Shown here: positions 45,601 through 64,000 of the stretch, piece by piece
Layout of the letters: each line of letters opens with the position of its first letter
Numbering within the stretch: the first letter of the stretch is position 1
DNA from: Bolinopsis microptera
Taxonomy: Eukaryota > Ctenophora > Tentaculata > Lobata > Bolinopsidae
Reading direction: 5' to 3'
Length of the DNA stretch: 64,000 nt
Assembly (NCBI RefSeq): GCF_026151205.1
Contig: NC_087080.1
Location: forward strand, 14,083,337 to 14,147,336
Notes under the pieces: model-generated
What the model saw: the letters and a program-made list of their open reading frames with translations, nothing else
The model's database searches: none
Told to the model about the DNA's origin: nothing
Program-made: the position numbers and the translations under genes

Positions 45601-48600
45601 ACCTTTGACACTTGACAGCCATAGTACATACTACAGACAATTACAATCACACAATAAACCATCTAGTCCAGTCATTTACGGACATTTTTGGGTTAGTACC
45701 TGCAAATTTTCAGATACCCACGAAACTTTGCACAGACCTTCCCAAAGGTATGATAAAACGATTTTCGGTTGGAGACATTTTTTTTACTTTGGGCAAAACC
45801 CAGGAGGGCCACGCCCATCTGACCCAATAACGTAACTGACCCCTTGCTTCTGAAGGTCGTAGAGACTTCAAAATAGGCTTAAACGAAGCCGCATATGCAT
45901 GTTTATATAAGAGTTATTGATCAACACATTGCCTAAAATCCTTACTTTTCGAGAAATTCGCCAAAAACCATTTTGGGCGTGGCGCTGAGCCGATTTTACT
46001 AACTTTTGATAGGATTGTGATAGAGTCTTTGGATAGAGTGCAAAAGAACCGCAATTGGCATATTTATATATGACTTACGAAGAAACATATGCCTTAAAGT
46101 GCTTACTTTTTCAGTTATTGGCGAAAAACTGATTTTCGGTTCCAGAAATCATGCAAAAATATGGGTATGTGGTACATTGGGCTATGAAGGCCTTAGAGAT
46201 TTTTGAATGAGTGCAAATTGTGCAGAATGGCCATGTTTATATACAACTTATGAAGCAACATGCACCCTTAAATGCTTACTTTTCGAGTTATTTGGGGGAA
46301 AAACAGAGAAAATTTGCACAAAATAGAGCAAAATTGGTTATATCAGCCATTTTTGCCTCCCGTTCTATGTTAATAACTCGAAAAGTAAGCATTTTAGGGT
46401 GCATGTTGCTTCATAAGTTGTATATAAACATGGCCATTCTGCACAATGTGCACTTATTCAAAAATCTCTAAGGCCTTCATAGCCCAATTTACCACATACC
46501 CATATTTTTGCATGATTTCTGGAACCGAAAATCAGTTTTTCGCCAATAACTGAAAAAGTAAGCACTTTAAGGCATATGTTTCTTCGTAAGTCATATATAA
46601 ATATGCCAATTGCAGTTCTTTTGCACTCTATCCAAAGACTCTATCACAATCCTATCAAAAGTTAGTAAAATCGGCTCAGCGCCACGCCCAAAATGGTTTT
46701 TGGCGAATTTCTCGAAAAGTAAGGATTTTAGGCAATGTGTTGATCAATAACTCTTATATAAACATGCATATGCGGCTTCGTTTAAGCCTATTTTGAAGTC
46801 TCTACGACCTTCAGAAGCAAGGGGTCAGTTACGTTATTGGGTCAATATGGGCGTGGCCCTCCTGGGTTTTGCCCAAAATAAAAAAAATGTCTCCAACCGA
46901 AAATCGTTTATTCATACCTTTGGGAAGGTCTGTGCAAAGTTTCGTGGGTATCTGAAAATTTGCAGGCACATGTCCATAAATGACTGGACTAATCTGCATT
47001 TTGCATTATGCTATAATATGTAGGATCGATGCGACGTATAATTACAAATGGTAATTACAAAATGATAATTACAAAATGATAATTACAAAATGGTAATTAC
47101 TGACTAAAACAGTGCTGCTTATAAAGTTCTTCTACAATCATGCTACTAAGCAAGTTGGAAATCGATTACGACATTTGTATTAGACAACAGATTGGACAAG
47201 TGCTCATTGTGCTCTTTGATACCTGAGAAAATGTGGCAACTTAGCCGACCTGTGTTTAATATTCATTATTAATATGCATATTTAGGGATATGCTGGAAAG
47301 AATCTAGAGTTGTAGGTTTATAACCTACCAGGACGCGCGCCGAGTTGGACTCGTCGACGGTCCTAATATATGGAACAAATATTTTACGAGTATCACCCGT
47401 TAAATCTAGAGCTGTCTCAAAATCGTTTCGCAAGTACTATTAGGAGGTCTTAATAACAATTTAACCATGTCACATAATCCAGCTGAACAACTGAACTACA
47501 ACTTAAAGTCTTAACTTAATCTTCCCCCCAGATTGTGCAAAGCTGGTCGGTACACTATTGACCTATCTCACCTCTCAGCTACTGCACTCCAGGACATCAT
47601 TGACTATCTGTACACTGGTAAGTAGACTAGACATCCAGATAAGGGGGGGTATTTTAGTTGCAGACTGAAGAAAACTCAAATGTGCACCATCTTTGATCCT
47701 CCCACATTTCATCTCAAGAAGTTTCACCCCCAAATAGTCGCCGGAAACGTAACTTAGTAACTCACTCTATAACCCTACTACCATGACAGTGACCCCCTGG
47801 TATAGCACCCTGGTATAGCACCTTGGTATAGCACCCTGGTATAGCACCTTGGTACAGATATACAGCCCCTGCAAGTCAGATCGCACATCTCAAATCATTT
47901 TATGTTACGGAGTTTCATATTAACAAGAAGCGATGTAACAAAGTCAATATATTGTATGTGGCCGTGGGGTGGCAAGTCCTCATTCATCGCAGCCCGCTAG
48001 TTTAACTGCCTCTCAATATCATGGGTCCAGGAACAAAAGCAGGCCCAATTAAGCTCGTCAGCAGCTCAGGTTGTTCATTGGCCTTTGTATTCTCCGATAC
48101 TGCATCTTTAACATGTAACTGTTGAGACATGCTCACAGCTTTATAACCGTACCCCGAACAAGCACTCCGGCACAAGGCCCAATATGCACAAGCTCAATAT
48201 GTTGATTAATTTAATCTGAACCGCGCTGGAGAACACGTGGTTTATCTGACCAATCGTAAAATCAGTCCCATTTTTAGTGCACCAGTTGTTCCTGTGTTCT
48301 GGTTCGGCTTGAACACCCCTTGTAACTAAGAATTAATCATCAAGCTTTCGTATCGGTAAAACGCTCTGCTTGATCATATTAGTAGCTCTTAACATGTCTT
48401 TCTGTCGAATGGGGGCTTCACACTCAGGACAATATAAAGTTTGTGTGACATTTCGCAGAGTATCGAAAATATCGGAAACATTTTCGTCCTTTCGAACTCA
48501 AAATCTAATTTTGTTGTTGAAAATGGTAACATTTCGCAAAATTTATGACATTTTAATTGTGTTTTTTGATGTTGGTTGCGAAACATGGCCCACAGTAATT

Positions 48601-51600
48601 ATCCCCCATCTCTACCTCGCGGGCAATTCATCAGACTCTCAGCACGATATGTTGCATGTTCATCAGACTCTCAGCACGATATGTTGCATGTTCATCAGAC
48701 TCTCAGCACGATATGTTGCATGTTCATCAGACTCTCAGTACGATATGTTGCATGTTCATCAGACTCTCAGCACGATATGTTGCATGTTCATCAGACTCTC
48801 AGCACGATATGTTGCATGTTCATCAGACTCTCAGCACGATATGTTGCATGTTCATCAGACTCTCAGCACGATATGTTGCATGTTCATCAGACTCTCAGCA
48901 CGATATGTTGCATGTTCATTGCCGGCTTTTCGTAACATTCAATATGGTTAAGGGGTTAATTAAATGCGTGGATGGTTTTTATTGTGACGGTTCACTAGTC
49001 CCGATAATATTTTCCTTCGAGTAGTTATCTTAATCGTTACGCGAACAACTACCTAAAGATGTCACACTTCACAGGCTGGCACATTTTACGGCTTCTACAG
49101 TCGATAAACCTAATGTACAGCTGTATAGATTTAATATTATGCTTTTCTATTTAAACTTTTAGGAGAATAACCAAACGCAATTTTAAATTATACAATAACT
49201 CTATTCTAGGACAGTTTAACATTGTGAACAAGAAGTTTCTGTCCATGGTACTTACTCTCAAGGAGCTGGAAATGGAAGAAATCATAGACCAGGTAGGGAA
49301 TTACAATATCCTCATTATAATATCCACATTAGTTTTATGATTCTTTGTTCCCATTATTTAAATTCTCAATCTTTCCATTTTTAATCTTTCTCGAATGTTC
49401 CGGAATATTCTCGATGATCTGCCATCAAGACGGTGGTAATCGCACTCGGAAATTGTTGAATTATAAACATGTTGAATGTGGTGGATCTAAGAAAGCATGA
49501 TTAAGTCTGTACGTTATGGCCTCTCCTACCCACTTTTTCTCGGAGCTTATGGCCTGCTCAAGCATGTAGGTTGAATGTCGTACTCCCGGTTTATGACCTG
49601 ATCAAGCATGTAGGTTGAATATCGTACTCCCGGTTTATGACCTGGTCGTATTCACCAACCGTAATGGGTGTTACTTTTCTCCCAGTTCCTGAGTAACTAA
49701 CTATGTAAAGGATGGGCCATATTATACACAATGACCAGAGTAGCAGGAATTCAGGAATTGGAGGTGTGACAAACAGTTGCTAACTTTAGTACATGTGCTA
49801 ACTTTAGCACACTTGTAATGGAGCTCGAGATTACGTTATTTCTGGCTAAACCAGTAGATTAGATTTGATATCTATGTATTTAGACAGATTGGTAGAGGAT
49901 GTTTAAATATATTGTTAAGTTGCTGACGCAGATGGCAGAAATAAAATGAATATTATACAGAATTCAATATATTTAGTGCATTTCCTAAATCCAATAATTC
50001 ATGATTAACTTAAAGCATTATTCTATCACAGTATTTTTACGCCTCCAGTTTTAAAAACATTTCCGTTATTCATATTGACAATTTTAATAAGTTAGTGCTG
50101 ATAATGATATAATGATTGATGGGTAGATACTATCAGACATTCCAGACCACAGGATCATTTAAAGGGAATACCCAAGGATGAGAACCGCTAGTATAGTATA
50201 GGTTCCTAAGGATGACCGGTTATTATGTTAAAATGATGTCTATATATAGACATACTCTATATATATACAGGGTGGGCCAAAAGTCAGTACCCATACGTTG
50301 GCCTTTATAGCTCAGTCACTGAGTGCCCAATTTAAATACTTCCTTCTGGTATGACTTAGTACCACCACTGGTTCGAGGAATTTGTCAACTCGAAAAATAT
50401 TTGCGTTCATTTTCATCAAATGGAGGTTCATTTTCACATTTATTTGATAGTTTTGATAGTCGGATCAAGCTAAATGTTATTGAATTGTGTTTGGCCATTC
50501 GAATTACGTTTGTCCTGAAAGAATTAGAACTGTAGCTTCTCAGATGACCGAGATATGAAGCATAACGAGTTTATTCATTACGTGTGATCAGGTGATTGGT
50601 TTACCTAATCACGTGATCAGGTGACCCCGTTAACTACCCCGTTAAACATTATGGGAATTGTTAAGGGTGCCCAATTAAGGTGTCGTGTCACGGTGTCACA
50701 TAATCACCCAGTCAATTTTGTTAACGAGATACAGAAAATGCTTGATAACTTCGTCATTTCTAATCCGTTTTGCCTCATGTTTTCAGATCATATGCAACAT
50801 TTGATAATCTACCGTCTCTGGAAAAATCAGGCGTTCAGCATGTTCAGAGAAAACAATATAGGTGTTTTAATATTGAATGGGCGTGGTCTAAAATATTCGA
50901 ATTTTCAAATTTTGACGACGGAATCCTCGAACCAGTAAGTACAGTGTGCCATCTGCAAAGCAAAAGCTCTCAAATATAAAACATGGAGGAGCTATTAAGG
51001 CCAACGTATGGGTACTGACTTTTGGCCCACCCTGTATATAGAGTCATTAGTGGCTTCGCTTGATACTGACGCTAACACCGTTTTTGAGAGTATATTGTTT
51101 ATTGAATGTGCGTATCTGTGCTCACTTTAGGACATGTTGGGTGGGCTTATTCTCTGTACAGATGTTGTTGACAGTGGGCATGGGTCATAACTTTGCCTTT
51201 CGTGCCAGATATTATACTGCAGCCTTATTTTAAAGTTAATTGTTGTACTATCTGATGAAAGTTTTAAGTTAAATCACCATTATCTCCGAAATAACAGAAT
51301 ATTCTGGACCTTTTAAAACTTCACCAACTTCAATTTCGTGCTACCTGGATATAAGCTCACGAACACAAATGTGTTAGCAACATGAAAATTGGAGACTGTC
51401 ATGATCAAATACACACAACACGTGATATCCTCCGTGATCATCCTGCAGATATCACACCATATAACTCCAACAACGTGACACACACCATATTATGTAACAG
51501 AAACTTTATGATTTCTTTTTCTCAACGTCAACACGTTGACTGTAACTCCCCAAACGGGTGGTATACTTCAACCTGGTCTATGTTTCATTATCTAGAGCTG

Positions 51601-54600
51601 CTTATATGTTTGTTTCGTTTACTAGTGCACCTACTACCGGAATACCCTTGTTGTGAGTTGTAGCTTACCGATCATTCGAGAATATTCGAGAACATTCGAG
51701 AGAGTTTGACGGTGGATCATTCGAGAATATTCGAGAACATTCGAGAGAGTTTGTCGGTGGATCACGTGAAAGTTGAAGATGAGTAGCTGTTTTTGTTTTC
51801 GTAACACAGTGAACAGTGTTAACTCTCGTTTGGTCTCCGAACAGTGTATGGAGAAGCTGAAGACGTCTCTGAGTGATAAGAATGTGTTTGATATCCTGGA
51901 ACAGTCCACTGGGGATATCGGTATGCTTTCTTTTTATTCCTTTTTTTTCTGTGTTTCAGTTCGGAATTTTTATTTAGTAATTCATTTAGTAAATTTGTTC
52001 AGAAAATTTATTTAGAAAATGTATTTAGAACATGCTTTTAGTAAATTTGGATTTATATGTCTTTGGTGGTCTTGAAAAATACTGAGCATTTACGATGTTA
52101 CCAACCAAGGGCTTCTTTCAAGGATGGCGGGAAAATTTTCTCTTTGAAACTAAAACGCTCTGTAAAATTAGAGGACCTCTTTAAATGTTGAAATTTTGCC
52201 TTCAAAAGGAGATTTTAACAGATTTTAACAGGCTGGATCCGTTTTAAATTGTATTATGTCTCCTAACTGTTAGAGCAGAGCAAGTTTATATTATTCTAGA
52301 AGAAGAATACTCTCAAATTGAGGGTCTCAATCCTCTATATAATGTTTTCTTTAATTGAACAAAAGAATTTTCAAAGAGCTGCATTTGTCCTACAAAGGAG
52401 TCCACCATTTAACACACTATTTAACCATACTATTATGCCTTCCCAAATGCACGGTAACTCAATATAACGGGTATAAAACATGCTGTTAGTCGACTGGATC
52501 TGATTCTAACGACTAAAACCTACCTCAGGGGTACTGAACTCAGTGGCTATGACCTACATAGAGGACAACTTCAAGACACTTTACAAAAACGACAGGATCT
52601 TAAGGTTGAACTGGGAGAGTTTCCACAAGATACTGTCCAGTGACCGTCTCAACGTTGAGAATGAGGATAAGGTAATTAGAATTTTTTTAATTTTCTGTAT
52701 CGAGTTTTAAATTTTACCTGATCAGCTTCTAGTTTTAGTGTCCTTGTATAATGGTAGCTGATATCATTGTCGTTTCTCGTCTCACAACATGCTTGTAGCT
52801 CCTCCTACTCGGTGTCCACTGAAATTTGTATTTTGTTTGGATTATGGTTTTAAAGGTTGTGTGGTATTATTATCTCTATTATTTAACGGCACTTATTTAC
52901 TACACGGCACTTACTATACGGCACTCACTATACGGAACGTACTTACTATACTTAGCTCACCATCTTTCCCAATCTATTGCCGATCAAATAATCCCCAATC
53001 CATCAGTATTCACAGTAACCCCACCAATAACTGTGTGCTAGTGACCCCACCCCAGCAACTCTTAACGGTATATAACCCCATGTCTCGCCAGGTCTATCAG
53101 TTAGCATTAGCGTGGGTAGCTAAGGTATATAACCCCATGTCTCGCCAGGTCTATCAGTTAGCATTAGCGTGGGTAGCTAAGGTATATAACCCCATGTCTC
53201 GCCAGGTCTACCAGTTAGCATTAGCGTGGGTAGCTAAGGTATATAACCCCATGTCTCGCCAGGTCTATCAGTTAGCATTAGCGTGGGTAGCTAAGGTATA
53301 TAACCCCATGTCTCGCCAGGTCTATCAGTTAGCATTAGCGTGGGTAGCTAAGGATGACATTGGAAGAAAACCTCACGTTACCGAGATCTGCTCAAAAATA
53401 CGGATCCCCTTCATGACAGACTACGGACTACAGGTTCGCTCTTCTAACCTGCAGTTACTTTTTCATTTTTTAGATATCATTGAGCATATAATAATAAGCA
53501 GTGATACAACGTATCTCGGGATGATCCGTAGAGTCTCGACTAGTTTCGGCTTACCGCCATCAACAGGATCGATGAATCATCTCAAATTATTTGTTATTAT
53601 ATAGTAGTGTTGAAAGTATTAAAACTTACTTTTTCATAACTTTCTAGTAGTTCAAGTTACTTTTGGTCACTTTTTATTTACTCTTGAAACCTGATTTGTT
53701 TTAAGTTATTTTTGTTAGCTGAACAGTACATTTTTACTGTTTTGAAGTGTTAAGTTTCTAATATATGGTTGAGTTACTCTCAACCCCCTTATAGTCCCTA
53801 GTGTGGTTTGAAGCCTCATAACTTTAATGGCTAGTGTAACTTTCATTAGTGATTAGAACACAAAATTCGTTGTGAGTACAGCACATTCTTCATTTATTAC
53901 GAGCTGCATAGCATGGTGTTTGTAATAGTAAATAATATTCGCATATTGCGTGTGCAAAGAGTCGTTAGCAATTATCATTCCACCAGTTATTAATTGTAAT
54001 TATACCATATGGACACGTTCATTGAAGTTTGAGGATATTGGTAAATATTAGTGACCCTACTGAATGGCACGATGATGTAAAATGTGTCACACTATGAAAC
54101 TATATAAACCCTCTAACCCTAAGATAATCGTTTCATCCTCTAGATAAAGTTTGTCGCATAACGATATCTTTATCAGACGATAAGATATCGCTAAAATGCG
54201 GCCGGCAGTGAGTTGTAAACTTTGTCACACTATAAAAACGTGACGGAGTTTATATGGACCCCTTGTTGCCGTGTTTGACAAAATTTTCGAATTTCCAATT
54301 CATAGAATGGCTGTATATGACTATTATCTACATATTTAGCGACTTTTTTTCTTAAATGGTAGCACCATGTAAACTCCGTCACACATTTAAGAAATTTATA
54401 TGAGGGATGTTTATGACATCCTGACAAGAAATGCCGAATAGTCTAACATTATTTTGTGAGCTGAATGTGTTTGGAATTGTTCACATATTTCATTGTTATA
54501 GGCAAATACAAATACAGAAGGCAGAAATAGGTAAATTTAGTCACATAAATTTGTATGATATCTCAACATGTGTGAAATTGAGTAAATATTAGTATACCAA

Positions 54601-57600
54601 CTTAAACACCCTATATTACGTACTATGGATCAATTAACAATATTTCAACCATACGCCGGTCATATAAATTATTATATGGCAGTGATATGTTAACATTGGA
54701 TAAATTTCAACACCTAAACAGGGTAAAAATTTGTAAATTTCGTCACAAAAAAAATGTTATAACTTTATTTGCTCCGTGTTGGCAAAATAACTAATTTATC
54801 GACATATTGATGGTGATAAAGTAACAGTATATAATACTAATTGAGGTATGATTCTTCAAAATAGGGGCAAGAAATGTAAATTTCGTCACATCAGCCATTG
54901 CATTAGTTAGATATATTTTCTTTCATATCAAATGCCCTTATTATAGTCGGAATGGATTTATACAGGAAATATAGAAACCCATGCCCATTTTTCATCACAT
55001 TGAAATTATACTGTTGGGGCAGGAAAAGTAAATTTCGTCACATTTCGGTAAATTAGTGATATCAAACTCAGCATTGTTAAACTTGGGTTCTGATTTTCTG
55101 AAAAATAACCTACCAATAATTCCTGGAAGAATATCGAATTCTAATCGGGGTATGGTTCTTCAAAATAGGGTCAAGAAATGTAAATTTTGACACATACGTC
55201 ATTGTAAAATTTAGATATACACTTTCTTTCACATCAACAGTCCTAATTATAGTTTGAAATGATTAATTCAGAGATAAGGAAATATAGAAACCCATGCCCA
55301 TCTTTCATCACATTGAAATTATACTATTGGGGCAGGAAAAGTGAATTTCGTCACATTTCGGTAACTTAGTAAAATTAAACTCAGAATTGTTAAACTCGAG
55401 TTCTGATTTGCTGAATAATAACCTACTGATAATTCCTGGAAGAATATTGAATTCTAATCGAGGCATGTTTCTTCAAAATAGGGTCAAGAAATGTAAATTT
55501 CGTCACATCAGCCATTGCATTAGATAGATTTTCTTTCATATCAACTGCCCTTATTATTATTGTGACAATTTTTACATCAACTGCCCTTAACTTGAATCAG
55601 CTCTATCCGTGCATCGTCCTTATTATATACAGTTTTCCCGCCTTCCAATACAAACCAAAATCAGATATAAATGATTTCGGCAATTCACCCAAAATTTTAA
55701 ATTCCATATAATGTGACAGAATTTACATCATTTCCCAATAAGTGCATGTATTTGCTAACTTTTCAAAACAACATATTTTAGGGCTATGATTGGTAAAAAA
55801 AACCATCAAATAATGAGTTGAAAGGGTTTTGAGGACACCTCACAGTAGAAAAGAGGTATCGTATTCTGAGTGTGACAAAGTTTACGAAATATTGCCTTAA
55901 AACCGTTCGATACCTGCCCTTTAGCCAAATGTTGTATCATAATTGTTAGAATGACCTAATCTACTATATTATTTTAAACAAAAAATGCTAATTGGGCAGC
56001 TATGGTTAACACAGTCACAAAAATGTGACATTTTTTACATTATAGTGCCTAAAAACAATAAATTGTATTTCTGAGCCGTGTATATGGAAGTATGGTTCAC
56101 GTGGCTAATGTCCAGAACTTCTGAACACGCTATTTTTTGGTTTACCAATATCCTTAAACTTCAACATGAACGTGTCCATTTACGATTTCGTATCATTTTG
56201 TGACGATGTTTACATCAACTGCCCTATACTTCAATCAACTGTATCCGTGTATCGTCCTCATATAGAGTTTTCCCGCCTTCCAAACCAAAATCAGATATAA
56301 ATGATTTCGGAAATTCACCCAGAATTTCAAATTCCATATAATGTGACAGAATTTACATCATTTCCCGATAGCCAAGCGCATGTATTTGTTAACTTTTCAA
56401 AACAACATATTTTAGGGCTATGATTGGCAGAAGAACTATCAAATAATGAGTTGAAAGGGTTTTGAGGACACCTCACAGTAGAAAATAGGTCTCGTATTCT
56501 GAGTGTGACAAAGTTTACGAAATGTTGCCTTAAAGCCGTTCGATCACTGCCCTTTAGGCCTACATTGTATCATAATTGTTAGATTGACCTAATCTACTAT
56601 ATTTAAGACCAAAAAATGCTAATTGGGCAGCTATGGTAAACAATGTCACAAAAATGTGACATTTTTTACATAATAGTGCCTTAAAGCAATACATTTTATT
56701 TTTGAGCAGTGCATATGGGAGTATGGGTCACGTGGCTAATGTTCAGAACTTATGAACACGCTAGATTAATATATGTTAAAATTAAACCACTATCGTCAAA
56801 AACGCTTTTTTAGAAATTTACCAATTTCCTCAAACTTCAATGAACGTGTCCATATAATAGCGGTGATGTGTTAAACAACGTGTCATTAACCGGAAATCCT
56901 GGATAATGTACGGGGGATGATTTGTGAGTGGGGGATTGTTACAAAAACCGTGTAAAAAAAACATTTTCTCCTTGCAGAACATGGTGTGTAACAAGAACAT
57001 CCTGACGAGTAACGAGGAGTTTTACAATAATATAGAGACGTTGCTAGGCAACCCTGCAGCGTTGCAGGTCCCCTTTTATCAGAGGGTCAATGATAAGATG
57101 GGGAAAATATTCGTGTTTGGGGGGTATCTGAACAGATCCCACATTACTACCACTATGGAGGTTTACAACAGGTATATAGCAAGTACACTTAGGTATATAG
57201 CCAGTACATTTAGGTACTATAGCAAGATATGGTCTGAGTAGTAGTACTCACTTCTAATATTTAAATATCCATCATTATCATTAGTCCCCTGACTATTAGT
57301 CGCACTTCCACATTTTATAGCTTACTTTTACAACAACAGTTTAAATACAAAATAAAACCAAATTGCTGGTAACCATAGTAACTAGTAACCATATTGCTGG
57401 TAACACAAAACATGAACCTGTTCTCATTGTCCAGGCGTACAGGAGCATGGGAAACAATAGAGGAGATGAACATGACAAGTACACCACCCAGTATCTACTC
57501 GGCAACCATGACTTCTGTTGCTGTTGATAATAAGATCTACATCGCAGGTATATTGTTACTTCATGGAGTTACATTATAATGTTACGTTACTTCATGGAGT

Positions 57601-60600
57601 TACATTATGATTTTATAATGTTACGTTACTTCATGGAGAGTTACATTATAATGTTACGTTATAACGCCTATCGTAGTGATAACGTGGAGACAGTATTTTT
57701 TGCGGTACCATGACATTGTCATGGCAACAGTTAAACATTGTTATGGTTACTATAAGTATGACAATGGTGGGAGAGTTCCAACCCTATTTTACCCATTATC
57801 CATATCTACATTTTAGTTTACGTTTTTCTCACAAAATGACCATATTTGGGATTAAATCCTTATCTTAAAACCTACCTACAGTAAAACTTTGTCACGACAA
57901 CAATATAACCGTGACACACTATCCCAGGGGGACAAAGTGACAGCGGCACGAGGTTGGATACCACCTTTGTATTTGACGGTATTCTCTCCATCTGGGCCAG
58001 TCTTCAGGAGATGCCGACTGTAAGAGTGAAGAGCGCTGCTGCTCGCTTTGGCAACTTCTTGTACGTCAGTGGGGGACAGAAGGATAGGCATACCATGAAC
58101 GAAGTTATCAGGTAATGTGAAGTGCGATGTATATCATGTATATGCTGTATTAATGTAATGTATTCTGAGGGATGCGGCGGTGACTTATCTTGAATAACTT
58201 TAACAACAACTTGGTAGACGCAATTACTGGTCGTGTTTAATTCTCCTCAGACGCTATACATAATTAAGCGTCTGACGGAACTTAAGACGAAAAGTTTGTG
58301 TAATTAACGCTTACATCAAATTTACCTCCACCAATGACTACAACATTGACTAATTTGTGATTTCTAGGAATAATGTTTGGTCATTGCATCCTTGATCCCC
58401 CCCTTTTGAGCACGCGGAATAGGGTGAGGTTGTGAAGTTGGTCAAGTGCTAATAAAAGTGCTGACACGCCAACCTCTAATAATCGTTAATACCTTGACAG
58501 GGCTCTATCGTTCCATGTTAAAAATCAAGCAGCTACTGTGTACTGGTAGTAATATGTAGTTTATGACCAAAACTGTGTTAAAATCAGAATTACTGTTGAA
58601 AGCTGAACGACCGTTTCAAGTCACAACGTATCACGTGATCTATAGTAGTATAGTGTATAGTGTATAGTGTGTAGTGTATAGTGTATGGAGTTGAGTCCAT
58701 TACTTTAAACTTACCCTTGGCACTAAACCACTAAACCATATATTCCAGTTTAAACCTCCCATTCCCCCATGCACGAATAAAACGCCAAGATCCAACCCCC
58801 CCCCCCCCCCCCCCCATGTTAAACAACTTACAGCAGTGCAGGAACCTGCCCCCCCCCCCCTCCCCCCACATGTTAAACAATTTACAGCAGTGCAGGAACC
58901 TGGCCAGCAGACTCAAAATGCAGACAGCTGACAGACAAAGTCCTCCTTATAATCATAAAGCCTGTCTGTTTCACGTTCATAGACTATCTCTAAGTAATAT
59001 TACCTAACCACAATCCAGCTGCAAATAACATCCCCCACACTCAGGTTGAACATACACCGGGATTTGTGGGAGACAGTGAACCCCATGATCCACGCTCGAC
59101 ACAGCCACGGAATGGTAACAGCCGGACAGAAGATATTCGCGGTCGGAGGGGACAGTGGAACAGGACCGGTAGCAACTGCAGAGGTGTTTGATAAGGGTAC
59201 GGGGCAGTGGAGCGAGATTGCTAGTATGAGCAATGCCAGGTAGGGATAGTACTGAGTGCAAACCAAAGGACTATGGATCCAATTTTCCAACATTTTCTTA
59301 ATCTGTTGGTAAGAACTACGGTTTGAGACCTCTTGTACCGAATTAATTTCTAAATTCCAATCGGTTAACACGCCTAAATCTCCTACCCTCAGGTTTGGAT
59401 GTCAGCTGGTGGCGATCAAGTCTCAAGTGTACGTGACCGGCGGGTGGAACGGCCGGAGAGCACTGCACGAGTGTGAGAAGTATAACGAGGAGAACGATAG
59501 TTGGGGTTACATCAGTCCTATGGCTACGAGGAGATACGGTCACATGGCTGTCTCCTTCGGTAGCAAAATATATGTTCTCGGCGGTCAACAGGTAACGTTC
59601 AAACTAACCTACAGTAAGACTTTATTACTGACTAACGTATTAATTCCGTGATTAGTGTACACCAATATCCCTTATATATTTAATTATTTAGCAATCAATG
59701 ACTGATTCCATTGCACGATCGAGTCCGAGAGAATTAATATACATATTAGCTGCATGGTATTGTGATTGATTTGAATATATTGTTATTTCCTCCAAGCTTG
59801 ATAACTAAAATTAAAATGAAAAACTTCGAACAACGTGAATGATTTATAAACATAAAGAACTTTGAAGCAAATGCTATCCTCTAACCTTTGAATGTTGTTC
59901 ATCACGTCAAATGCGAGGTGGCGATATTGTTGTTCATCTTGGTTCCGTAACTGTTAGAAGAGTCACCAAACACCAATATAAGAATTCAGAAACCGTCAAA
60001 CCCGCGAGATAAATTGGTTTTATCAGGCTGACGATGTGAATTAATACACTAACAATAAAAACCATTTTATGTCGCAATTTCAACACAAAGCACAATAACT
60101 TTACTAAAATTTTTAATTGAGAGCAAATATAAAATTTAGGGGAAGACAAGAAATACTTTAAATGAATATGAACTAAATAAGACTAAGAGCCTCTTGAAAT
60201 CCCTGTCTAAACTGAAACACAATTCCGCCTAGTCTGGTCCGTGGACTGCCATAACAGGGGCAGGGGCAAGGAAAATGAGTACCCACCAAGGTCCAGGCAT
60301 GGGCAAACCTCTGAATGTAAGTATATGTACCAGCGTTTTAAACTGAACTGGACTACTGGTCCTTCTTCAACTACGAGCCAGTGCCTGAAAAACTTGGAGT
60401 GAAACTTTAAACTTGTTGTCTTGAATCATGGATTATATTCTTAAACATGTACATTGTTAAAACTCTTTTATGATTATTTTACGGGTTTGATGGCAGATAT
60501 GCTGTATTGATTCGTTAAGCAATCATCATACTGCAGTAGACCAAATCTTTGTTTCAGTGAACTAATCATCGAACAACATCAATACAAATACAAATACAAT

Positions 60601-61056
60601 ATACATTAATACATTATACACTGTGTATAATGTACTTCACAATTCTTCACAACACACGAACCTACCTTTCTAAAACATTGAAGCACTTATTAAGCACATT
60701 TAGTACTGAGTTCTTGCATTTAAGTTTGAGAAATTGGAACGCTTTGAGCTGCCAGGCAATTGTTTATTGTTTCGTCTTTGCCAAACAAACCTATTACGAT
60801 AATTACAAAACTTCTGCAAATCATATGGATATTGTGCTATTTCTGGTATAAAGAGTGCTGACATTACATTTCTGGTATAAAGAGTGCTGACATTAAATTC
60901 CTGGTATGGCTAAATGCTGACATTAATGTATCGCAGGTGCAACATGAGGACGCTATCGCAAGTGTGGAGTACTACGACGCTGTAGAGAACGTCTGGACAA
61001 GAGCACCAGATATGGGCAATGCCCGGGCGTGGGCGGCTGTAGGAGCCGTCATGTGA
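42570..61056 (+). CDS. Kelch-like (BTB-BACK-Kelch) protein, about 13 exons
   Basis: KLHL proteins are usually substrate adaptors for CUL3 ubiquitin ligases: BTB binds CUL3 and dimerises, Kelch binds substrate. Exons: 42570-42634 (or 43157-43200), 44428-44613, 47532-47617, 49210-49292, 51845-51920, 52529-52672, 53320-53433 (may begin as early as 53092), 56978-57171, 57435-57547, 57928-58111, 59045-59239, 59393-59591 and 60937-61056. Phases match throughout, giving about 585 residues. BTB (about 33-135) shows CDVIIKTKENTSIFAHSAIL and ALQDIIDYLYTG. BACK shows VYQLALAWVAK and KIRIPFMTDYGLQ. Kelch blades carry GKIFVFGG, NKIYIAGG, QKIFAVGG, SQVYVTGGWN and SKIYVLGG, each followed by Y/F and W positions. 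Exon 52529-52672 has one extra T (four at 52620-52623 where three keep frame), probably an assembly error. Without exon 1a, translation could start at the ATG at 44459. A possible poly(A) signal is at 61483-61488. Confidence 0.88.
42673..42702. repeat. 11-bp-stem hairpin
   Basis: GGGGCGACCAT and ATGGTCGCCCC are exact reverse complements around eight AT bases. It lies 40 bp after KLHL exon 1a. Confidence 0.85.
43157..43200 (+). CDS. Candidate KLHL alternative first exon 1b
   Basis: ATG, 14 codons (MAKRSSYRSKRNVE) and two bases, ending GAGAG|GTGCGT. It has the same phase as exon 1a, so it can also join the BTB exon. The peptide is very basic, unlike 1a. It is short, so chance is a real alternative. 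Confidence 0.4.
44738..45457. mobile_element. 720-bp hAT-like non-autonomous element
   Basis: The left end CAGGGGCGTGCCCAGG and the reversed right end CAGGGGCGTGCACAGG are near-perfect inverted ends of a type common in hAT relatives. GC-rich subterminal parts include a GGGGGC/GCCCCC hairpin near 45363-45380. The flanking 8 bp (AAAACAAT and AAAAAATC) are only partly alike, so the target duplication is unproven. Confidence 0.6.
45664..46991. mobile_element. 1.33-kb fold-back element with about 620-bp arms
   Basis: Arms 45664-46292 and 46373-46991 are inverted copies with few differences, around an 80-bp centre. Within each arm the phrase CTTACTTTT(T)CGAG recurs about every 160-175 bp (45941, 46102, 46275 on the left; mirrored on the right). 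No coding capacity was seen. Confidence 0.85.
47618..49209. other. Third KLHL intron with two minisatellites
   Basis: A 13-bp unit (CTGGTATAGCACC) repeats five times at about 47797-47860. The 32-bp array 48629-48916 follows. The long plus-strand ORFs here are produced by the array. Confidence 0.6.
48629..48916. repeat. 32-bp minisatellite, nine near-identical copies
   Basis: Units start CATCAGACTCTCAGCACGAT and continue ATGTTGCATGTT, back to back without spacers. Only one base varies, in the fourth copy (CAGTACG). Because 32 is not a multiple of three, the open reading passes through all frames in turn. Confidence 0.92.
49293..51844. other. Fourth KLHL intron
   Basis: Contains a two-copy 44-bp repeat (GTACTCCCGGTTTATGACCT core, about 49575-49645), the clean mariner-like MITE 50268-51034, and a two-copy repeat of about 48 bp built from ATTCGAGAA words (about 51670-51765) shortly before the next exon. 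Confidence 0.6.
50268..51034. mobile_element. Mariner-like MITE, clean copy, 767 bp
   Basis: Inverted ends of about 38 bp begin CAGGGTGGGCCAAAAGTCAG and mirror exactly at the right end. TA lies outside both (50266-50267 and 51035-51036). CAGGGTG...CCAAAAGT ends and TA duplication are typical of mariner/IS630-type elements. The internal frames carry no transposase, so it is non-autonomous. Confidence 0.9.
51921..52528. other. Fifth KLHL intron
   Basis: AT-rich, nothing recognised apart from good splice sites at both ends. Confidence 0.55.
52673..53067. other. Sixth KLHL intron up to the duplicated splice site
   Basis: Contains short repeats of ACGGCACTTACTATAC type (about 52885-52955). It ends where the 57-bp tandem array begins. 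The plus-strand ORF of 271 codons starting at 52789 merges this intron with the exon and is not a separate gene. Confidence 0.6.
53068..53352 (+). repeat. 57-bp x5 tandem duplication of a splice acceptor plus the first 11 BACK codons
   Basis: Each unit is 24 bp of intron end (GTATATAACCCC, then ATGTCTCGCCAG) and 33 bp of exon encoding VYQLALAWVAK. The five copies are identical except T to C at 53211. The unit is 19 codons and stays open, so acceptors after 53091, 53148, 53205, 53262 or 53319 all give in-frame products with 5 to 1 copies of the helix. AAG|GTATAT at each unit end also looks like a donor, but the 24-bp interval is far below a usable intron length. Confidence 0.93.
53434..56977. 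other. Seventh KLHL intron, mostly one symmetric element
   Basis: About 570 bp of plain AT-rich DNA, then the two-fold symmetric element 54007-56855, then about 120 bp before exon 56978. No coding potential was recognised. Confidence 0.7.
54007..56855. mobile_element. 2.85-kb symmetric non-coding element with a phased 15-bp motif
   Basis: Inverted ends of about 40 bp start ATATGGACACGTTCATTGAA. The motif GTAAATTTCGTCACA or close variants occurs in that orientation through the left half (among others 54215, 54369, 54531, 54733, 54876, 55028, 55180, 55341, 55493). It occurs as its reverse complement through the right half (55561, 55712, 55871, 56024, 56199, 56342, 56504, 56655). Spacing is mostly 143-175 bp. 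The right 640 bp, including a copy of the terminal sequence near 56150-56180, is duplicated in tandem. No ORF of note. It resembles a transposon with subterminal transposase-binding repeats, but its class is unknown. Confidence 0.85.
57548..57927. other. KLHL intron with TTACTTCATGGAGTTACATTA repeats
   Basis: A unit around GTTACTTCATGGAGTTACAT occurs three times at about 57557-57645. The rest is unremarkable. Confidence 0.6.
58112..59044. other. KLHL intron with C runs and a direct duplication
   Basis: Two C runs (58796-58815 and 58850-58866) each lie beside a copy of a roughly 40-bp phrase (TACAGCAGTGCAGGAACCTG). There is a TATAGTGTATAGTG run at about 58647-58685. Confidence 0.65.
59592..60936. 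other. Last KLHL intron
   Basis: No element or gene recognised. A 27-bp phrase (ATTTCTGGTATAAAGAGTGC) is duplicated just before the final acceptor (about 60838-60900). Confidence 0.55.
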
Positions 61057-61579
61057 GATGTGGTGTTCGGTGGAAGAGGAGTGGGTCACCAGTAGGGCCC
61101 GGAAATGGCACTTCATCAGTTGAAAGACCAGGCGCTTTTTCGTTGACATTCGAGAGAGAAATCACCAAAATTGCGCATTTGAATTCTTTGTTCTTCAACT
61201 TCTTGTCTTTACGTTCAATTTTTGAGATTTTGATGCAAAGAACTCTCGAAGAATACAGAGTTGTCTATCTTACTCTTCATGATCAGAACTGATAAAATTG
61301 AGATTTTCTTACCGTTTTATTTTGTGTTACTTATATTTATATTTTATTAATTGTGTATCTGAGCTATCGGATGGAATTCTGGCAAGCTGTTTAAAATAAT
61401 ACTTTGTGTTGAAATTGTTTTAGATCTTCTGATTGCACTTTCTGAAAACAACTTTTAATTGTCAAAGACATATCTAATTGTTAATAAAACCTAATAACTG
61501 AACTGCACAATCTTAAATTACACCAGAAAAGTGAGAACTATTACGATCTAAAATTACTTTCGACTTACCGATAAAAGAT
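61057..61579. other. KLHL 3' region and spacer to the tRNA
   Basis: AATAAA at 61483-61488 is the best candidate poly(A) signal for KLHL, which would give a 3' UTR of about 430 nt. A T run read from the minus strand (complement near 61570-61575) terminates the tRNA. Confidence 0.45.
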
Positions 61580-61661
61580 CGACGAGGATGGGATTCGAAC
61601 CCACGCGGGCATTGCCCAATGGATTAGCAGTCCATCGCCTTAACCACTCGGCCACCTCGTC
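61580..61661 (-). tRNA. tRNA-Ser (anticodon GCT)
   Basis: Read on the minus strand the gene begins GACGAGGTGGCCGAGTGGTT (box A) and carries the anticodon loop CTGCTAA, a long variable arm (type II tRNA), box B GGTTCGAATCC and the acceptor strand CCTCGTC plus discriminator G. The acceptor stem pairs perfectly over 7 bp, and the sequence is very close to animal cytosolic tRNA-Ser(GCT). There is no intron. TTTT follows within a few bases. Confidence 0.96.
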
Positions 61662-62744
61662 CCTGCGACGGATATAGATGCAATGATCAATGAACAAAAG
61701 TTGCTGCCATAATTTAAAAAGCAATTCTTGAAAAGTATTGGCAAATTCAGACGTCCCTACAATTGAAATTTTAGTAGAATCGTCTGCGGTGTTCTATGAA
61801 GTTAATTTTATTCTGAGCCATACCTACGCCCCCCTTAAACTGGACGCCTAGTAAATCGTAATTTCTACACGCATTCTATGGGGAAGTACGTGCGCGTCGA
61901 AAATTTCAGTGATAAAATGATGTAGAGGATGAACTACCCGACGAATAACTCATTGGGCGTTCGCGCGTTCCATATCTCAATGTACCATTCTGTCTCACTT
62001 ACGGAACTTTGTACAAAACTGTTCCAAATTACAAGGCCGTAAATCAGTCGTTCTAACAACAACTATTTTTTATAAGTTTCTTTCAGATCCTAATTTCCTT
62101 CATAATTTTCGAATATTAAGAAAAGTTTAAGACTGACACAATTTGTGCAAGTTTGGGTAACTTTATATGTGCTAAATTAGAAATATCACTTCTATCACAA
62201 GAAATAACTCTAAAGCGATGGTGGGCCACTGAACACAGACAATCATCTCCAGATCCTAATATTTGACTTTCTTCTAACTTCCCAGATAGTAAAATGAATA
62301 TATAACTGACAATATGTGCAAGTTTGAACGATTTTCTAAGTGCAAAATTTGACATATCACTTTAAATTTAATTTAGAGATATTTTCTTTTGTATTTTCAA
62401 TTTATATTAGATATGTTTTTAGATATCTCAAATTTGGAACATTGAAATTCACCCAAACTCGCATATAATGCATCGGTATTACCCATCTGTATTACAATCT
62501 GGGAAGTTTGAAGAAAAATCGCATGGTTATGATCTTGAAAATTCGCTGGTTTGGAGATATTTTCTTGTGTTTGAAGTTATATCTCGAATTCTTCACCTAG
62601 AAATTTGCCCAAACCTGCACAAATTACAAGTCTTAAATAGGAAGTTTCCATAAAATCCTATGGTAGAATTTTGAGATAATCGACTTTCGTCATAGAAACA
62701 AGTAAAACACCATTTTTTTTCAATAAATAAAAACTGAAATGAAT
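61662..62744. other. Spacer between tRNA-Ser and RPS23
   Basis: Contains the symmetric element 62125-62638. The remaining sequence, including the RPS23 3' UTR next to 62744, shows nothing else I can name. Confidence 0.5.
62125..62638. repeat. 0.5-kb symmetric element with phased GTGCAAGTTTG motif
   Basis: The left end GTTTAAGACTGACACAATTT mirrors the reversed right end ATTTAAGACTTGTAATTTG. The motif CAATTTGTGCAAGTTTGGG occurs at 62139 and 62310 in one orientation and, reversed, at about 62449 and 62606, i.e. spacings of about 170 and 155 bp. The design parallels 54007-56855 on a smaller scale. Confidence 0.6.
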
Positions 62745-63953
<1,209 letters not shown>

Positions 63954-64000
63954 GGCTACAAATAAGGTTAGGTTTAAAACACGTGATCATACAACAACTC

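Follow-up and report, generated by a model that had tools for sequence, protein, structure and literature searches.

Introduction

NAGNAG tandem acceptors are several in-frame acceptors in a row, 3 nt apart. Tandem units that carry splice sites can reportedly also yield alternative introns, as is said of the human introns from tandem arrays treated by Zhuo et al. in PNAS in 2007. De Grassi and Ciccarelli (2009; PMC2812944) describe variable internal tandem repeats at exon-intron boundaries in recently duplicated human genes that lie in segmental duplications. These boundary repeats can alter splicing, and 32 of the 40 coding modifications in Table 2 of that article are in frame; in human paralogs, they are said to create novel introns, and RNA data support this (PMC2812944). 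For Drosophila, Lehmann et al. (2010; PMC2891723) describe intron gain by tandem duplication of an AG/GY proto-splice site.

During the analysis of a window of 64,000 nucleotides (the whole stretch of DNA that was analyzed), an array of 57-bp units was recognized at the 3' end of an intron in a BTB-BACK-Kelch gene. The array belongs to a known kind, the variable minisatellites at exon-intron boundaries, and here whole acceptors are copied. It is a row of in-frame acceptors as in NAGNAG, but the spacing is 57 nt instead of 3 and a branch-like motif accompanies each acceptor, and it is not a NAGNAG site. Introns of the type attributed to Zhuo et al. could be made here as well, from AAG/GTATAT and CGCCAG in each unit (a slash marks the splice junction). 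The difference is that this array lies on the 3' end of an old intron, and acceptor choice would be possible without a new intron.

The likeness to the human genes in PMC2812944 is that the repeat crosses an exon-intron boundary, and that the copy number of a minisatellite varies between near-identical gene copies. Novel introns are described there; here, as read from the DNA, each unit duplicates an acceptor that already existed, together with its branch-like motif. The cases in PMC2891723 share the origin of splice sites by tandem duplication, with a multiple-of-three size that permits retention or removal. Those cases lie within coding sequence and the youngest are judged to be 5-10 million years old, whereas a near-identical multi-copy array lies over the junction here. 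A narrow literature search, covering titles and the starts of abstracts, found no array of identical, complete acceptors like this one.

Results

Structure of the array and its host gene

The modelled gene (Table 1) matches the Pfam profiles BTB, BACK, and Kelch_1 in this order, all above the cut-offs, as expected for the KLHL-type gene proposed in an earlier sequence-only reading of this DNA. The BTB match covers positions 53-109 of the 110 positions in the profile, which is the C-terminal part, the start of BTB lying outside the gene model. Kelch_1 is matched in five stretches. The sizes of the modelled exons are 76-199 nt.

At 53068-53352 on the plus strand, five 57-bp units are arranged head to tail with one substitution overall, and each unit is composed of 24 nt of intron end and 33 nt of exon start. 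TRF called 53067-53353 with the period 57, 5.0 copies, and 99% match, in agreement with the unit alignment. Four of the five units are identical, and unit 3 differs by T>C at 53211, which changes TAT to TAC and is synonymous if translated. Read in the frame of the preceding exon, every unit is VYNPMSRQ-VYQLALAWVAK and is free of stops. Five such units cannot be a product of chance. Minisatellites are taken as nearly identical units of 10-100 bp arranged head to tail, and both this array (5 x 57 bp) and the array in a second copy of the locus (7 x 57 bp), each with one substitution, are of this kind.

The sequence-only reading had recognized the five units of 24 + 33 nt, the single substitution, the phase 0 exon end, and the open unit of 19 codons, all of which were found again here. 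The unit size and the reading frame also agree with its claim that every acceptor would give an in-frame mRNA. It had placed the end of the preceding exon at 52672; the exon and its phase stand, and the end is 52671. The five acceptors had been called identical, and CTCGCCAG/GTCTA is indeed present at all of them, but they are not fully equivalent because acceptor 1 has an additional branch-like TAAC upstream. The donor-like unit junctions and the second locus with seven units, both described below, are additions to that reading.

Table 1. Features of the gene, the array, and the flanking exons, in window coordinates. Each acceptor ends at the second position given.
Feature	Position	Strand	Remarks
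BTB-BACK-Kelch gene, modelled part	47532-61056	+	11 exons, 501 aa before stop; 5' end outside the model
Preceding exon, first part of BACK	52529-52671	+	ends in phase 0
Acceptor 1	53068-53091	+	TATAAC, branch A 16 nt before the last G, CTCGCCAG; extra TTAAC at 26 nt, immediately before the unit
Acceptor 2	53125-53148	+	preceded by donor-like AAG/GTATAT at 53124/53125
Acceptor 3	53182-53205	+	preceded by donor-like AAG/GTATAT; unit with the sole substitution (53211)
Acceptor 4	53239-53262	+	preceded by donor-like AAG/GTATAT
Acceptor 5 (last)	53296-53319	+	yields the canonical BACK domain
Array exon from the last acceptor	53320-53433	+	114 nt; 342 nt if from acceptor 1
Following exon	56978-57171	+	equal length in both locus copies
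Donor repeat, 21 bp x 2.7	57170-57226	+	contains further copies of the following exon's donor; AG/GTA at 57171, 57192, and 57213

The one-unit form gives a Pfam BACK match in a single stretch with 71.2 bits, and in the five-unit form the match is broken into two stretches with 69.8 bits in total. The junction was aligned without gaps in the three chains whose alignments were viewed, two of KBTBD2 and one of gigaxonin. Judged by this homology, the splice junction lies where it had been placed from the sequence. The exon from the first acceptor (114 aa) was also modelled with AlphaFold2 from the single sequence, and each unit was drawn as one helix. Because the mean pLDDT is 50.1 and the pTM is 0.26, this model supports no structural conclusion.

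Paralogs and the state of the intron

The genome searched has 264.65 Mb, of which 13 chromosome-size contigs (C1-C13, 15-26 Mb) together hold 258.07 Mb, or 97.5%; C14 and C15 are 198 kb and 168 kb long. A genome-wide search with Pfam BACK gave 46 matches. Two of them are the two copies of this gene, and four of the 44 others likewise end at the profile positions 63-67. Four of the six paralog regions retrieved were viewed, and acceptors were used from two of them. The KLHL-type paralog at C3:13217599-13218167 has an intron at the same place and in the same phase (ESK/VYEGVMTWI) with a single acceptor, as can be seen directly. In the paralog at C8:14930002, the intron lies a few codons further on. 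The donor side alone was recognized in the region C6:8453409, and no clear equivalent acceptor was seen in the region C3:10208274. From the comparison of these genes, we infer that the single-acceptor state is probably ancestral.

A second copy of the locus with seven units

A second copy of the locus was found 133 kb downstream on the same contig (C9), and its array has seven units. The only substitution in the second array is GTA>GTG in unit 6, synonymous if translated. Around the array, the two copies are 99.65% identical (3 differences in 862 positions). Near-identical copies carry different unit numbers, whether they are alleles or paralogs. The sequence-only reading had suggested that the copy number may differ between alleles; the variation itself, 5 versus 7 units, is now seen directly, and the copies that carry it are either alleles or paralogs. 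It had also taken the near-perfect identity of the units as a sign of very recent expansion, which is plausible but not proved, the local divergence between the copies being very low as well.

The two copies are part of a large duplication. From 17.6 to 70.7 kb in window coordinates, the matches to C9:14237499-14286669 are colinear, with gaps and large insertions in one copy only. The exceptions are one missing kilobase and one off-order row, which is an interspersed element. The gene at 62.7-64.0 kb, which from the reading of its translation we take to be RPS23, is duplicated with 96% identity. The stretch past the first copy (14158 kb) matches 14303 kb with 98%, and the stretch at 14217 kb matches 14323 kb with 88%, over 1.2 of 3.0 kb, the remainder being repetitive. 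Duplicated stretches are offset by 106 to 145 kb. A head-to-tail arrangement is possible, in which the first copy would run from about 14101 to 14237 kb, in a reading for which 14163337-14203999 and everything past 14290499 were outside the sequence taken for comparison. A distant paralog as the origin of the second locus was ruled out by the colinear matches from 17.6 to 70.7 kb and beyond.

Similar pairs on the same contig are present on C11 (293 kb apart, 99.7% over 3.9 kb) and C12 (137.5 kb apart, 95-98%); both were picked as equal-offset pairs, not randomly. The probable source of the sequence is the Bolinopsis microptera assembly, for which PMC10232365 describes continuous long reads, gap filling, and haplotig purging. 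Because the assembly was built in this way, leftover haplotypes joined end to end are plausible. The two copies are probably two alleles, that is, haplotypes joined by the assembler, while a true tandem duplication is a rather unlikely alternative.

The same long reads and gap filling, together with the identity of only 76-82% between 19-33 kb of the window and its duplicate, could be cited for an assembly error as the source of the array. This is extremely improbable, since the array is present in two separately placed copies that each have a different private substitution, and the identity between the copies around the array is 99.65%.

Several other features were observed along the two copies. 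The segment 19100-33200 shows 76-82% identity to its colinear duplicate, compared with 92-98% in the neighboring blocks, and one copy of it may be unpolished raw-read sequence. A 2.8-kb insertion with 40-nt terminal inverted repeats (54007-56855), in the intron that follows the array exon, is absent from the second copy and looks like a recent DNA transposon. The element at 50262-51040 is 0.78 kb long and has terminal inverted repeats of 52 nt (98% complementary); the second copy is without it at the same place, and a further copy with 88% identity was found at C9:14252642-14253371. A large, near-perfect palindrome that would form a long hairpin lies at 45683-46982; its arms are 473 nt (99% complementary) and 136 nt (93%). 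Within the second copy, C9:14287499-14290499 includes a repeat part with about two dozen other full-length matches of 96-100% (37 of 697 candidates scored) and a segment in tandem at about 1.24 kb; this repeat is a very young element. Between the KLHL-type gene and the next gene, tRNA-Ser (GCT) is encoded at 61580-61661 on the minus strand. At C8:3037368-3037806, three blocks of 62700-63960, the gene presumed to be RPS23, adjoin without intervening sequence (81-83%), which looks like a processed copy.

Constraint on the gene

The 11 modelled exons show 12 differences in 1,506 nt between the copies, and all are synonymous. The pS is 0.038 (12/319.7 synonymous sites) and the pN is 0 (0/1186.3 other sites). 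The exon alignments are gapless, and AG and GT are retained at every modelled junction in both copies. Judged from these intact exons, the gene is constrained while the array shifts from 5 to 7 units. Unit 3 of the first array (53211) and unit 6 of the second each carry one substitution, and both changes are synonymous if translated, for which the chance is 0.05 with all changes considered and 0.11 with transitions. This weakly favors translation of the inner units.

Splice signals and the choice of acceptor

Outside the array, the gene has 10 modelled acceptors, and 7 of them have the motif TAAC 11-24 nt before the intron end. The corresponding values are 8.7% (0.087) for intron positions and 42 of 537 for the other AGs in the introns (binomial P 3.5e-6, Fisher P 3.0e-6); the range was set after viewing the data, and the array's own intron is counted among the background positions. 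In the two paralogs used (C3:13217599 and C8:14930002), whose acceptors are outside the count of 10, no TAAC lies within 40 nt of the acceptor. TAAC is likely the branch motif of this gene, and the paralog pair gives no extension past it. All five array acceptors have TATAAC at 16 nt, and their pyrimidine content is 0.69, the range in the gene being 0.50-0.75. Over the last 40 nt of the intron, acceptors 2-5 show no difference from one another, and acceptor 1 departs from them only farther upstream. Scanning would favor acceptor 1, and exon length would favor the last acceptor (114 nt versus 342 or 456 nt).

If acceptor 1 were used, the array would be a coding VNTR with all units in every mRNA, and BACK would contain an insert of 76 aa (five units) or 114 aa (seven units), set by the allele and not by splicing. 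Acceptor 1 comes first and has two branch-like TAACs, all 12 units of both copies are open, and both substitutions are synonymous. This reading is nevertheless doubtful. The insert would fall within a constrained domain (0 amino-acid differences in 11 exons) and splits the BACK profile match in two, and the exon would be 342 or 456 nt long, compared with the 76-199 nt of the modelled exons. Conversely, exon definition from the donor at 53433 could lead to use of the last acceptor alone, with the other units intronic and the array silent. The 114-nt exon then fits the sizes of the other exons and the canonical BACK domain is produced. This outcome is unlikely, as the last acceptor has no local mark: the final 40 nt of the intron read the same at acceptors 2-4, and acceptor 1 carries an additional TAAC.

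The four inner unit junctions create donor-like AAG/GTATAT sites and each unit includes CGCCAG, while two real donors of the gene are CAG/GTATAT. Removal of units from AAG/GTATAT to a later acceptor (24, 81, 138, or 195 nt) would result in the same set of mRNAs as acceptor choice. The 21-bp repeat at the donor of the following exon is in frame as well, and its count is the same in the second copy. RNA folding of 53020-53433 was weaker than in all 100 shuffles (z +2.63), and no folded switch was seen.

Comparison with chance and with other arrays

The chance that a unit is in frame and open is about 0.2, the product of 1/3 (multiple of three) and 0.59 (stop-free 24-mer). After overlapping TRF rows were merged, 16 arrays were obtained within 47532-61057. 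Two of the 16 cross an exon-intron boundary, which is not above the 2.4 expected by random placement (P 0.73), and targeting of repeats to splice sites was rejected on this result. Among the 18 arrays paired between the copies, 10 differ in copy number and 8 are equal; the pairing was done by eye, rows lacking a counterpart, mostly from segments found in one copy only, were left out, and unit length is unequal in a few pairs. The varying arrays include those of 32 bp (9.2 versus 3.2 copies), 17 bp (3.8 versus 9.8), and 31 bp (not called versus 10.6). Because 10 of 18 arrays vary and boundary crossing is at chance level, the 57-bp array is best seen as one of many unstable minisatellites, which lies on a splice site by chance.

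The array had been proposed from the sequence to be a ready-made length switch. As a regulated device, acceptors would be chosen by tissue or stage, and the helix count would alter the function of the adaptor. Every outcome being in frame agrees with such a switch, but an in-frame and open unit has the chance of about 0.2 given above, and boundary crossing is likewise at chance level. The copy number shifts in a gene whose other modelled parts are conserved, and the folding analysis gave no sign of a structural switch. With more than half of the paired arrays varying in the same manner, the proposal is not sustained; a length switch as a regulated device is unlikely, and only a slim probability is assigned to it.

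Discussion

The explanation preferred here, with confidence about evenly balanced, is a boundary-spanning VNTR tolerated through degenerate splicing, in which the one-unit mRNA would be under selection and the longer isoforms would be by-products. We infer that a tandem duplication across the ancestral intron/exon junction copied 24 nt of intron end along with 33 nt of exon. Each unit thereby holds a whole 3' splice site (the branch-like TATAAC, a pyrimidine-rich stretch, and CAG) and the start of the exon. Slippage or unequal exchange would then shift the unit number, as in the other minisatellites of the locus, resulting in 5 and 7 units. Regardless of the copy number, the one-unit mRNA would encode the canonical BACK domain, and this mRNA would be the product under selection. 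Expansion of the array may be tolerated because any acceptor, or removal of whole units, would give an in-frame mRNA, and because splicing to one unit would restore BACK.

Four points stand against the tolerated minisatellite. A scanning spliceosome would prefer acceptor 1, with its extra TTAAC 26 nt upstream and no AG between. Both substitutions inside the arrays are synonymous, which weakly suggests that the inner units are translated. The loss of Pfam score in the five-unit form is small. The branch motif TAAC is missing near the acceptors of both paralogs compared.

It is also possible, although tentative, that a ladder of in-frame mRNAs is produced, in which BACK would vary by helix-linker units of 19 residues and the range would be set by the allele. 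If this is true, the array would act as an inherited and mutable dial that sets protein length through splicing, and the 21-bp in-frame donor repeat of the same gene would supply a second ladder.

The competing acceptors differ almost only by position, and the locus is therefore a natural test case of 3' splice-site choice, with two array lengths on offer within one assembly. Isoform counts for this one gene would gauge the effect of position, that is, of the first AG and of exon length, on 3' splice-site choice in an animal. The array also suggests why a repeat that copies an entire splice site and the start of an exon can persist in a constrained gene.
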